Shown: in pieces, positions 19,210-25,129 of the stretch
Position numbering within the stretch: the stretch's first letter is position 1
Layout of the letters: every line of letters starts with the position of its first letter
Assembly (NCBI GenBank): GCA_913061175.1
Contig: CAJXUF010000002.1
Span: 1 to 46,485 of the forward strand
Length of the DNA stretch: 46,485 nucleotides
Reading direction: 5' to 3'
Origin: an uncultured Psychrobacter sp.
GTDB lineage: Bacteria > Pseudomonadota > Gammaproteobacteria > Pseudomonadales > Moraxellaceae
Program-made: the position numbers and the translations under genes
Notes under the pieces: generated by a model
The model's input: the letters and a program-made list of their open reading frames with translations, nothing else
Told to the model about the DNA's origin: nothing
Databases searched by the model: none

Positions 19210-19473
19210 GATAAAGGGCTCGCAGCATTTTTAATAAGGCGTTTTTAAGAAGCTGAAGATTGTACCATATAAGGTTAACAATATTGATATGAGCCACTGA
19301 GATTCATTGCAAATCATCGCTCATTGTTGACTAAAATGGAAAAATTAGACGATTATAATGATGTTAATAAATATCTTTTTCAAAATGTTTGAACGTTTTT
19401 GAGCGCTCTGTAATTCTTTACCTTACAAACTTTTGTTGCTACATTAAAGTACTGAAAATATTTGGCTAGACTC

Positions 19474-22167
19474 ATGTCGCTATATCAGCTCAAAACTCAG
19501 TTTCAAAATCAATTACGTCCGATAAGCAATACGCTGGTTGAGCAAAATATTACCGCTAACCAAGTGACAGTATCCGCTGTTTTATTGAGTATCGGTACTG
19601 CCTATATCATTGCCAAACCAGCGGCTGAACAGCAGCGGCTGTGGCTTTTATTACCATCATCATTGTTTGTACGTATGGCACTCAATGCCATCGATGGCAT
19701 GATGGCGCGTGAGCATGGACAGACATCAAGGCTCGGAGCCGTGTTAAACGAGGTAGGTGATATGGTTGCCGATACGGCGCTATTAGCGAGCCTGACCCCT
19801 CATATTCTGACCCATCATATCAATGATAAAGAACAGCAAACGTTAATAGCCAACTTGCCAACGAATATATCAATTTATCAGCATCATATCACTGCTCTGA
19901 TCGCCCTTAGTATTGGCACCGAGCTGTTGGGCGTTACTAGTAATACCATGTTAGGTGTTCGTGCTAACCAAGGGCCTTTGGGCAAAAGCGATCGTGCCTT
20001 CTTATTAGGTATGCTTGGTGCGTTTATGGGCATTAGAGCCAAAGCGCCAGTAGGTATTAAAGGGCAGGTGGCTTTACCTGCTATCAAAATGGGTCAATTA
20101 TTTATACTAACAGAGATAATGCTACTAAAGACCTGTCTCAATCGACTACGTTATATGACAGAGTTATACTTAGTGCGTAACCCACCTGAGCTGCGATCCG
20201 TATTAGGTGAGACAACAAACAACTCACTATCTCTTACTGTTGTTTTGCCAAATACTTCTACTGATAACGCTCGCCCATTGGAGTTCAAAGAAATGCCAAC
20301 CACAACCGTTGATAGTCAAAAATTCGAAGAACAGGCCAGTGTTGGTTTTGACTTGCCTGCATCTAAAATCATCGATGGTGAGAGCTGTTATAACGCTTAC
20401 GACGGCACGGCTATTTATTATCGCTATTGGCTAACGAAGCCTTTAGAAGATATCAAGCAAGCCAACCAACCGTTGCGCCAAGTTATTTTATTACACCGAG
20501 GGCATGAGCATTCGGGACGATTGGCAGAGCTGGGAGAGCAGTTTGCAACAGCTGGCTATCAAGTATTTGCTTGGGATGCACGCGGTAATGGTCGCTCAGG
20601 CGGTATCAAAGATCATGCTGAGAGCGTTACCGAGCTTGAGCGAGATTTAGAAGGTTTTGTACAACTAGTGATTGGGCAAACAGGCATTGCTATCGAGGAT
20701 ACATTGATTGTCGCTAGTAGTATCGGCGCGGTATTGGCAGCAGCATGGGTACACGATTATGCGCCTAATATTCGCGGGATGATATTGGGCACGCCTGCGC
20801 TCAGTATTCGCTTGTATTTGCCCTTTGCTATACCATCGCTAAAGGTGGCACGTACGCTAGGTTTGATGTCACGTGTCAGCAGCTATGTTAAAGCACAAGT
20901 ACTGACCCATGATAAAGACGCACAGCAGGCTTACAATGCCGATCCATTGATATCGAATAGTATCTCGACCGACTTACTCATCGACACTCATGCAACGGGT
21001 CAGCGTTTACTTGATGATGCAGGTGCCATTACCGTACCGACGTTCGTCTTATGTGCGGGCAAGGATTATGTGGTCGATAAGCAGGCTGAGCGCACGTTTT
21101 ATGAAGCGATTAACACACCGATCAAACGCTGGCAGTTGTATCCAGACAGCTATCATGCAATCTTTCATGAGACCAATAAAGCCGATGTCTTTGCCGACTG
21201 TATTGAGTTTGCTGAGCAAGTATTTAGCGCACCAGTCCAAGCCCCTGATCTGAGTACGGCTCACTTAAACAGTGCCAGTAAGGATAAAGTAGACCGTTTG
21301 GCGATTAAACCATTCAATCCAAACTTTGCAATTACCCGTTTTGCAATGCAGAAATTTGGTCATGTCAGCGATGCAATTGCTACAGGGCTTGAGCATGGAT
21401 TTGATTCAGGTCATTCGCTGGATCATGTCTATTACAATCAGCCTAGCGGTCAGAATAAGTTTGGACAGGCGGTCGATAAGTTTTATTTAAATAATATCGG
21501 TTGGCAAGGTATTCGTATTCGCCGCGAGCACATATTGGAGTTGGCACGTTTAGCACTTGCAGATATCGAAGATAAAGATCAAAGCAGCAATAAATCATAC
21601 CAACCAAAACTGTTAGATATCGCTAGTGGACATGGTTTTTATGCATTTGATCTGCTGACAGAGTTTACCGATTTGTATGCTGAATTGCGTGATTATGAGA
21701 TGCATAATATACAGGCATTGCAAGCAAAAGCACAGCAGTTAGTGATTGCTGATCGAGTAGTGACCAGTCAAAAGGATGCTTTTGATCCTGCCAGTTATAT
21801 CGATGTACATACGAATGATACTAGTACCGATACTAAAAAATCAGATCTTGCTATTGCTTCTGGGTTATTTGAATTGTTCTCTGATAATGCGCTACCAGCG
21901 ACAGCTTTGGCAGGTATTCATGACAGTTTAAAATCGGGCGGTTATCTGATTTATACCAACCAACCGTGGCATCCTGAACAGGAATTTATCAGTAAAACAC
22001 TAAACAATCACCGTGGCAGTAGTTGGGTGATGCGTTGCCGTTCGCAAGCGGAAATGGATCAATTGGTTGAGCGTGCAGGCTTTAAGAAAATCACGATGCG
22101 TATCGATCGCTTTGGGATATTTACTGTTTCGTTAGCGATTAAAACCGCCCCAGCTGATGATGAGTGA
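19474..22167 (+). CDS. Fusion protein: CDP-alcohol phosphatidyltransferase (YnbA-like) + alpha/beta hydrolase + class I SAM methyltransferase (YnbC-like)
   Basis: N-terminal NAIDGMMAREHGQTSRLGAVLNEVGDMVAD CDP-OH-P-like motif with multi-TM region; middle HRGHEHSGRLAELGEQFATAGYQVFAWDARGNGRS, VASSIGA, CAGKDYVVD, SYHAIFHE; C-terminal LLDIASGHGFYAFDLL. ORF track start 19462 is TTG; ATG at 19474. Confidence 0.85.
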   Translation: MSLYQLKTQFQNQLRPISNTLVEQNITANQVTVSAVLLSIGTAYIIAKPAAEQQRLWLLLPSSLFVRMALNAIDGMMAREHGQTSRLGAVLNEVGDMVADTALLASLTPHILTHHINDKEQQTLIANLPTNISIYQHHITALIALSIGTELLGVTSNTMLGVRANQGPLGKSDRAFLLGMLGAFMGIRAKAPVGIKGQVALPAIKMGQLFILTEIMLLKTCLNRLRYMTELYLVRNPPELRSVLGETTNNSLSLTVVLPNTSTDNARPLEFKEMPTTTVDSQKFEEQASVGFDLPASKIIDGESCYNAYDGTAIYYRYWLTKPLEDIKQANQPLRQVILLHRGHEHSGRLAELGEQFATAGYQVFAWDARGNGRSGGIKDHAESVTELERDLEGFVQLVIGQTGIAIEDTLIVASSIGAVLAAAWVHDYAPNIRGMILGTPALSIRLYLPFAIPSLKVARTLGLMSRVSSYVKAQVLTHDKDAQQAYNADPLISNSISTDLLIDTHATGQRLLDDAGAITVPTFVLCAGKDYVVDKQAERTFYEAINTPIKRWQLYPDSYHAIFHETNKADVFADCIEFAEQVFSAPVQAPDLSTAHLNSASKDKVDRLAIKPFNPNFAITRFAMQKFGHVSDAIATGLEHGFDSGHSLDHVYYNQPSGQNKFGQAVDKFYLNNIGWQGIRIRREHILELARLALADIEDKDQSSNKSYQPKLLDIASGHGFYAFDLLTEFTDLYAELRDYEMHNIQALQAKAQQLVIADRVVTSQKDAFDPASYIDVHTNDTSTDTKKSDLAIASGLFELFSDNALPATALAGIHDSLKSGGYLIYTNQPWHPEQEFISKTLNNHRGSSWVMRCRSQAEMDQLVERAGFKKITMRIDRFGIFTVSLAIKTAPADDE

Positions 22168-22170
22168 TAG

Positions 22171-24194: not shown

Positions 24195-24220
24195 CTCTGC
24201 TATCTGTGCTTTGATTGTAT

Positions 24221-25129
24221 TTAACCAAATAACCAGTAGAGTAGAGTAAATGCTGGCACTCCAATCAGTAAACTGTCTATCCGATCTAACACCCCACCAT
24301 GACCAGCGAGCATCGTTCCAGTGTCTTTTACCCCGTGCTGGCGCTTAAAGGCTGATTCTAATAAGTCTCCAAATATACCGCTTACAGCCAAGCCATAGGC
24401 AGCTAATAGACAGATCCACCAATCAAAAGGGGTGAGCCAAAGACCTAATACTGCTGCCCACATTGCCGCAACTAAACTGCCAAAAACAGCACCTTCAATG
24501 CTTTTATTCGGGCTAATAGTCGGCGCTAGACCTCGTTTAAACAGCTTACGTCCAAGCAGTCTTCCGCATAGGTATTGGGCAATATCATTAAACTGACTGG
24601 CAAATAATACGAAGAGTAAAACACCATATTGTTCGCGTTGCCAGGTCAATTGCTGTAAGACAATAAGGCTAATGATGAGTGAGATGAATGCAACACTCAG
24701 TAGCAGGTCTAAGGAGTTGAGCCGTGTATAGTGTTGAGTCAGATTGAGAGAGGTTTTCGCTAGTAGGGAAGTATTTGGCTGTAAGCCTTTAGCTTGGAGT
24801 TTATGAATGAGTACGGCTTTACTGCGTAAACACCATATACGTTTAATCTCGTAGCTGCCGCGTAGACCAATTAATATAAAAAATAAAATGAGCAGCCATT
24901 GATAGGGATATGCTTGCGAATGAGAACCTTGCGTATCGTTTGTTATTTTTGCAATCACATAGCAAGTGCAGAGCGCGGCGAGCATCAACCACCACGAGCG
25001 GGCTATCAAGTAGATTTTTGGCAAGCGTTTTCGCAGACGAGGTACGGCAAGCACGCTCCAAGCCAAGCTGACGATTATCATCAGGGCAATCACAAACACA
25101 ATATCAGATGCCATACCGTAGACACTCAA
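24221..25129 (-). CDS. Phosphatidate cytidylyltransferase (CdsA family; YnbB-like by context)
   Basis: CDS signature SAFKRQHGVKDTGTMLAGHGGVLDRIDSL; multi-TM. Confidence 0.92.
   Translation of the reverse strand: MSVYGMASDIVFVIALMIIVSLAWSVLAVPRLRKRLPKIYLIARSWWLMLAALCTCYVIAKITNDTQGSHSQAYPYQWLLILFFILIGLRGSYEIKRIWCLRSKAVLIHKLQAKGLQPNTSLLAKTSLNLTQHYTRLNSLDLLLSVAFISLIISLIVLQQLTWQREQYGVLLFVLFASQFNDIAQYLCGRLLGRKLFKRGLAPTISPNKSIEGAVFGSLVAAMWAAVLGLWLTPFDWWICLLAAYGLAVSGIFGDLLESAFKRQHGVKDTGTMLAGHGGVLDRIDSLLIGVPAFTLLYWLFG

Follow-up and report, generated by a model that had tools for sequence, protein, structure and literature searches.

What does a cluster of four genes do that unites a phosphotransferase, a hydrolase, a methyltransferase, a patatin-like protein, a short-chain dehydrogenase/reductase (SDR) and a CdsA paralogue? 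The question is raised by a stretch of 46,485 nucleotides from an uncultured Psychrobacter sp. (GenBank assembly GCA_913061175.1, contig CAJXUF010000002.1), which is called the window here. The draft genome to which it belongs, as contig C2, measures 2.9 Mb. The original prediction, made from the letters of the window, suggested a complete pathway for an unusual phospholipid, in which a CDP-alcohol phosphatidyltransferase (PT) swaps the headgroup while methyltransferase, SDR and hydrolase tailor the product. Sequence comparison gives good support for the cluster being a deep-branching relative of the module known as ynbABCD in Escherichia coli and as arc1 in Pseudomonas aeruginosa. The pathway as proposed could not be upheld: the PT domain lacks two of its four metal-binding Asp residues and the patatin-like protein lacks its catalytic dyad, and with the catalytic residues of two parts replaced, the obvious reading of the cluster's chemistry is doubtful. 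With about even confidence, the cluster is read here as a diverged Arc1/YnbABCD lipid-remodelling module that would limit damage by phospholipases and lysolipids.

The open reading frames (ORFs) agreed with the predicted layout of three tightly packed genes and a convergent fourth (Table 1). Fusion and patatin gene are separated by 3 nt, patatin and SDR gene overlap by 4 nt, and the convergent gap between SDR and CdsA-like gene measures 26 nt. The longest ORFs begin at 19462 for the fusion and at 25129 for the CdsA-like gene. ATG 19474 is most likely the start of the fusion, with TTG 19462 as the alternative, because its relatives begin with MS(L/I/V)YQLK; for the CdsA-like gene the most likely start is ATG 25114, not TTG 25129. 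The domain assignments were borne out by Pfam, weakly for CDP-OH_P_transf (26.6 bits at a cut-off of 22) and with 188 bits for Hydrolase_4, 297 for Methyltransf_20, 54.8 for Patatin, 88.8 for adh_short and 141.7 for CTP_transf_1. None of the PADLOC anti-phage models matched any of the proteins.

Table 1. Features of the cluster, given as nucleotide positions of the window or as residues of the fusion protein
Feature	Position	Strand	Evidence or key residues
Three-domain fusion, 897 aa	19474..22167	+	ORF, Pfam domains, alignment with relatives
YnbA-like CDP-alcohol phosphotransferase-fold domain of the fusion	residues ~1-235	+	
Hydrolase_4 domain of the fusion	residues 332-568		Ser416/Asp531/His561
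Methyltransf_20 domain of the fusion	residues 578-889		
Variant PT catalytic motif N71-x2-D74-G-x2-A-R-x8-G88-x3-N92-E93-x2-D96-x3-D100	19684..19773	+	canonical: Asp at 71 and 92
Patatin-like protein, 399 aa	22171..23370	+	Cys46 (GTCGG) for nucleophile Ser; Leu264 (CLGG) for dyad Asp
SDR-family oxidoreductase, 275 aa	23367..24194	+	Ser156/Tyr169/Lys173 and GGTSGIG intact
YnbB-type CdsA paralogue, 297 aa	24221..25114	-	signature KD...AGHGG...DRxD, P to A

The PT domain of the fusion aligned with phosphatidylinositol phosphate (PIP) synthases and cholinephosphotransferases, and its best NCBIfam matches were archaetidyl- and phosphatidylinositol phosphate synthases. Its AlphaFold model (predicted local distance difference test, pLDDT, of 87) showed the CDP-alcohol phosphotransferase fold, with PIP synthases as the best Foldseek matches (E ~2e-5, template-modelling score ~0.6-0.7). 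The predicted fold, the DG-x2-AR segment, the following Gly, the fourth Asp and the Asp four residues after it are shared with PIP synthases, which are class I CDP-alcohol phosphotransferases. However, Asn replaces the first and third metal-binding Asp (D1 and D3), the residue after the third position is a Glu, and YnbA carries a C-terminal R-x3-GPxGKSDRA. The pattern DxxDGxxARx8GxxxDxxxD, which demands all four Asp, is thus not matched, with N71 standing for D1 and N92 for D3. The YnbA-type signature NxxDGxxA(R/K)x8GxxxNExxDxxxD together with the C-terminal motif was found in the window and in 103 other proteins. Among these 104 aligned proteins D3 is always Asn, D1 is Asn in 103 and Ser in one, Asn92, Glu93, Asp96 and Asp100 are invariant, and D2, D4 and D4+4 are retained. 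The relatives were gathered with two scan patterns, of which one included the Asn at D1 and neither included D3, so that the count for D1 is partly selected. No comment on this Asn motif was found in the open-access literature; it may have been noticed earlier elsewhere.

The resemblance to PIP synthases underlies the main competing explanation, namely, that the cluster is dedicated to the synthesis of an unusual minor phospholipid and that protection is a side effect. YnbB would produce CDP-diacylglycerol, an alcohol phosphate would receive the phosphatidyl group through the PT domain, as with a PIP synthase, YnbD would dephosphorylate the product, and methyltransferase and SDR would modify the headgroup. 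Fold and NCBIfam matches fit this proposal; the invariant or nearly invariant Asn residues do not, given that the corresponding D68, D71, D89 and D93 of Mycobacterium tuberculosis PgsA1 bind two catalytic Mg ions, with D89 touching both. In addition, no acceptor-specific gene was recognised in the cluster and the patatin-like protein is left without its dyad. The explanation is considered possible, but we lean against it.

For the patatin-like protein, a single-sequence predicted model reached a pLDDT of only 35 and was not interpreted; a sequence profile was used instead. In the profile alignment, the nucleophile of PlpD corresponds to Cys46 and its dyad Asp to Leu264. The glycine-rich loop, the nucleophile-elbow region, RAS and the GG-segment of the patatin-like phospholipases PlpD and VipD could be aligned, but neither of them has the Cys at the nucleophile position or lacks the dyad Asp. 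The Ser-Asp dyad of patatin phospholipases (GxSxG, DGG/DGA) is missing family-wide: Cys was invariant and the Asp absent in 13/13 rows, including a homologue of 29% identity from another family, as well as in 15 rows of a separate patatin-like alignment, and the Asp position was occupied by L, F, M or T in all aligned members. An ordinary patatin encoded elsewhere in the same genome retains GTSVG and DGG. A lone Cys-type homologue with no other cluster gene nearby was met in another bacterial family (genome G636, L164:8091-9233), and the Cys-patatin family is therefore wider than the cluster.

The remaining parts kept their signatures. The Ser/Asp/His triad of the Hydrolase_4 domain is intact in 31/31 sequences, and motif I of the methyltransferase is retained. 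The glycine-rich Rossmann motif and the Ser-Tyr-Lys residues of a classical SDR are present in 14/14, and the CDP-diacylglycerol synthase (CDS) signature KD...GHGG...DRxD is invariant in 24/24 except for the Pro preceding GHGG. The hydrolase domain also matched lysophospholipase L2, weakly and under the cut-off (39 bits). This division suggests that YnbA and the patatin-like protein might serve as non-catalytic lipid-binding or scaffold subunits, with hydrolase, methyltransferase, SDR and CDS as the enzymes, an arrangement compatible with either protection or dedicated synthesis. It accounts for the loss of canonical residues in just these two parts. However, the replacements are themselves invariant (Cys46 in all rows, the four residues from Asn92 to Asp100 in 104/104), and altered chemistry therefore fits at least as well; the scaffold proposal is regarded as unlikely.

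Co-occurrence across genomes, the absence of which had been named as grounds for giving up the prediction, was found to be strict. Genomes were covered by a family survey (119 genomes) and a genus sample (60 genomes); for 18 of the carriers in the family survey, 12-18 kb of surrounding sequence was examined for neighbouring genes. The methyltransferase domain occurred in 19/119 genomes of the family, and each of the 12 carriers from the window's genus, among them the window's own genome, had it in an open frame long enough for the fusion. In the genus sample the methyltransferase (PF12147), the patatin, the SDR and the YnbB-type CDS, scored separately from the housekeeping CdsA (~80 bits), were present in the identical 37/60 genomes, while 23/60 had no complete member; as the species are related to one another, no p-value is attached to this figure. 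In G780 all four were kept with SDR and CDS ~0.76 Mb from fusion and patatin, and in G788 with the CDS more than 1 Mb distant. If the genes had no function in common, it would be difficult to account for their retention when unlinked. G795 had CDS fragments only. Outside the sample, where only the neighbourhood of the fusion was read, G070 (L045) carried the fusion without adjoining partners and G023 (L052) fusion and patatin only. These observations support a functional set inherited all-or-none.

All four genes of the window are under purifying selection (omega 0.07-0.20). A decaying pseudo-patatin was rejected, as the omega of this gene (0.12-0.19) lies near its neighbours' values; nadA is tighter at ~0.03. 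Mere chance neighbourhood was rejected too, since the genes co-occur even when unlinked, and related genomes contain homologues of them in synteny that are likewise under purifying selection. The usual order in the genus is UbiH-like, LysO-like, fusion, patatin, SDR, CDS (convergent), nadB and nadA. With these flanks the same in most related carriers, the window copy looks long-settled and a recent mobile origin is disfavoured. In some loci of the genus a gene for a 410-aa PIN7-domain protein (window 17064-18296) separates the UbiH-like genes from LysO; in others it is absent or replaced. A mobilizable 135-kb plasmid of Moraxella osloensis, pNP7-2 (L183, NZ_CP024445.1 92846-112579), bears the cluster with IS3 transposases on both sides; this copy is damaged by an in-frame stop within the hydrolase domain of the fusion, and a transposase gene interrupts its ynbD homologue.

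The proposed relationship to YnbA, YnbB and YnbC was supported by homologues of all three and by the Asn-substituted YnbA motif, which is present in both the window and E. coli. The statement that ynbA, ynbB and ynbC lie together in E. coli was correct for MG1655, but it left out the fourth gene of ynbABCD (b1408-b1411). The E. coli operon consists of four separate genes in one direction, ynbD included, and contains no plsC. In the window cluster, by comparison, a fusion joins YnbA to YnbC, ynbB runs convergently, ynbD lies elsewhere in the genome, and the patatin-like protein and the SDR are added. YnbD combines PAP2 with a dual-specificity phosphatase (DSP) domain. Its homologue in the window's genome does not adjoin the cluster but lies at G000:C106:4392-6005 (PAP2 by Pfam, C477-x5-R by pattern), and homologues occurred in 20/37 cluster carriers versus 2/23 other genomes, both of the latter broken. 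The YnbB-type gene is distinct from the housekeeping CdsA of the same genome (G000:C180).

YnbB of E. coli failed to complement cdsA; when overproduced, it raised the glycolipid MPIase to about the same extent as CdsA did (PMC6362211). The cluster might accordingly be seen as part of a membrane glycolipid route, in which YnbB and YnbA feed an MPIase-like glycolipid through a GlcNAc-PP-DAG precursor. However, a ynbB knockout left MPIase unchanged and the role of the gene was termed 'marginal or auxiliary' (PMC6362211), and hydrolase, methyltransferase, patatin and SDR would be left unexplained, which makes this route very improbable. The failure to complement cdsA is likewise in keeping with dedicated lipid synthesis.

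The original prediction also missed the PlsC-type partner of YnbA-YnbB and the published link to Pseudomonas. In P. aeruginosa, arc1A-F (PA2541-36) is a Gac/Rsm-controlled antagonism resistance cluster (PMC8926400), and full resistance to the type VI secretion system lipases TseL and Tle1 depends on arc1A (PMC12663445). In PAO1, PA2536 is annotated as phosphatidate cytidylyltransferase, PA2537 as acyltransferase and PA2540 as putative phospholipase; PA2541 is a membrane protein gene and RsmA target. PA2541 is presumably a CDP-alcohol phosphatidyltransferase. Four Pseudomonas loci (L107, L119, L120 and L139) showed the order PT, hydrolase/methyltransferase, DSP (PAP2-DSP), small membrane protein, PlsC and CDS, with which the published annotations of PA2541-PA2536 agree position by position. 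PT, hydrolase/methyltransferase and CDS are common to arc1 and the window cluster; the Pseudomonas loci have no patatin-like or SDR gene, whereas the window cluster adjoins neither plsC nor a small membrane gene, and no PlsC-type acyltransferase was among its neighbours. In the open-access literature no paper linking arc1 with ynbABCD was found, only the MPIase and arc1 work bore on the function of YnbABC(D) or Methyltransf_20, and E. coli ynbABCD, taken as a whole, was not found to have an assigned function.

When species genomes were scanned with the YnbA alignment, at least 585 relatives came to light. All neighbourhood counts use the 80 best of these, which belong by their record titles to many phyla: Pseudomonadota, Nitrospira, Planctomycetota, Verrucomicrobia, cyanobacteria, Bacillales and others. 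A YnbB-type CDS was near YnbA in 68/80 loci, a PlsC-type acyltransferase in 63/80 and YnbC with YnbD in 21/80, and several loci without such partners stop at a contig edge. YnbA-YnbB-PlsC is thus the common denominator, joined by YnbC and YnbD in a subset. The CDS and PlsC counts and the two phosphatase domains of YnbD would also suit dedicated synthesis. Aas-type genes (major facilitator superfamily plus acyltransferase, most with an AMP-binding domain) were near YnbA in 6/80 loci of four lineages. In 16/80 loci (L116:11158-11736 and 15 others) a gene close to plsC encodes a ~190-aa membrane protein that no Pfam model matches, and another such protein, of ~140-150 aa, follows ynbD (L139:12838-13293, L105:12750-13166 and relatives), in Pseudomonas between ynbD and plsC at the arc1D position. 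In Pseudanabaena (L113, L115), a stand-alone Methyltransf_20 gene without hydrolase domain lies directly 3' of YnbA-YnbB-PlsC. Patatin-like and SDR partners within the cluster were met only in the Psychrobacter/Moraxella clade, four members of which (L041-L044) have YnbA and YnbC unfused. In a tree of the YnbC parts this clade was fully supported and stood apart from the E. coli/Pseudomonas clade; its exact attachment is unsure because its branch is long (2.1 changes per site).

In the preferred reading, that of a module limiting phospholipase and lysolipid damage, the whole cluster would act in the membrane as a unit. The Hydrolase_4 domain would remove or trim damaged or lyso-lipids, and YnbB would supply a CDP-activated lipid as a private pool apart from that of the bulk CdsA. 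The YnbA domain would use or bind this lipid through its PIP-synthase-like fold to give a minor protective lipid, which methyltransferase and SDR would modify. Co-inheritance, the distribution of ynbD, the Pseudomonas gene order, arc1A-dependent resistance and the linkage to PlsC and Aas support this reading, as do the PIP-synthase fold, the YnbB/MPIase data, purifying selection and the lysophospholipase L2 match. Most of its steps are common to dedicated synthesis; the two would differ in whether deletion, without attack, costs the cell a discrete lipid.

Several points weigh against the protective reading. Asp-to-Asn changes at two metal ligands argue against ordinary CDP-alcohol phosphotransferase activity. 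We infer every chemical step, for any member of the family, from sequence, and the protective role is transferred from arc1A, for which it was shown in Pseudomonas. Equating PA2541-2536 with the YnbA family relies on published annotations and gene order. By eye, no RsmA-like GGA site was seen directly upstream of the fusion, and no plsC adjoins the cluster in congeneric genomes. The Arc3A family (PF10101) was only mildly enriched in carriers (34/37 versus 15/23 others, p=0.015, uncorrected for phylogeny), and along the long branch of the patatin- and SDR-bearing clade the function may have shifted.

A bolder idea, which is held to be doubtful, is that YnbA/Arc1A form a large pan-bacterial subclass of proteins with the CDP-alcohol phosphotransferase fold, whose metal site, rewired by the two conserved Asp-to-Asn changes, carries out some reaction different from the usual headgroup transfer. 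Here it would be fused to a lipase-methyltransferase and accompanied by a Cys-nucleophile patatin that transfers acyl groups instead of hydrolysing them, so as to make or repair an undescribed lipid.

The ancestry of the cluster is known, its architecture of fusion, Cys-patatin and SDR is considered new, and no description of the family-wide motif change was found in the open-access literature. Caution is advised in annotation, as Pfam matches alone do not suffice for labelling YnbA as a phosphatidyltransferase or its partner as a phospholipase. With ynbABCD and arc1 in one family that has a YnbA-YnbB-PlsC core and a changed metal site, the role of arc1 becomes a concrete question of enzymology. 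In the Moraxellaceae variant two further partners are tightly co-inherited, and lipidomics could catch the products or intermediates of these partners.

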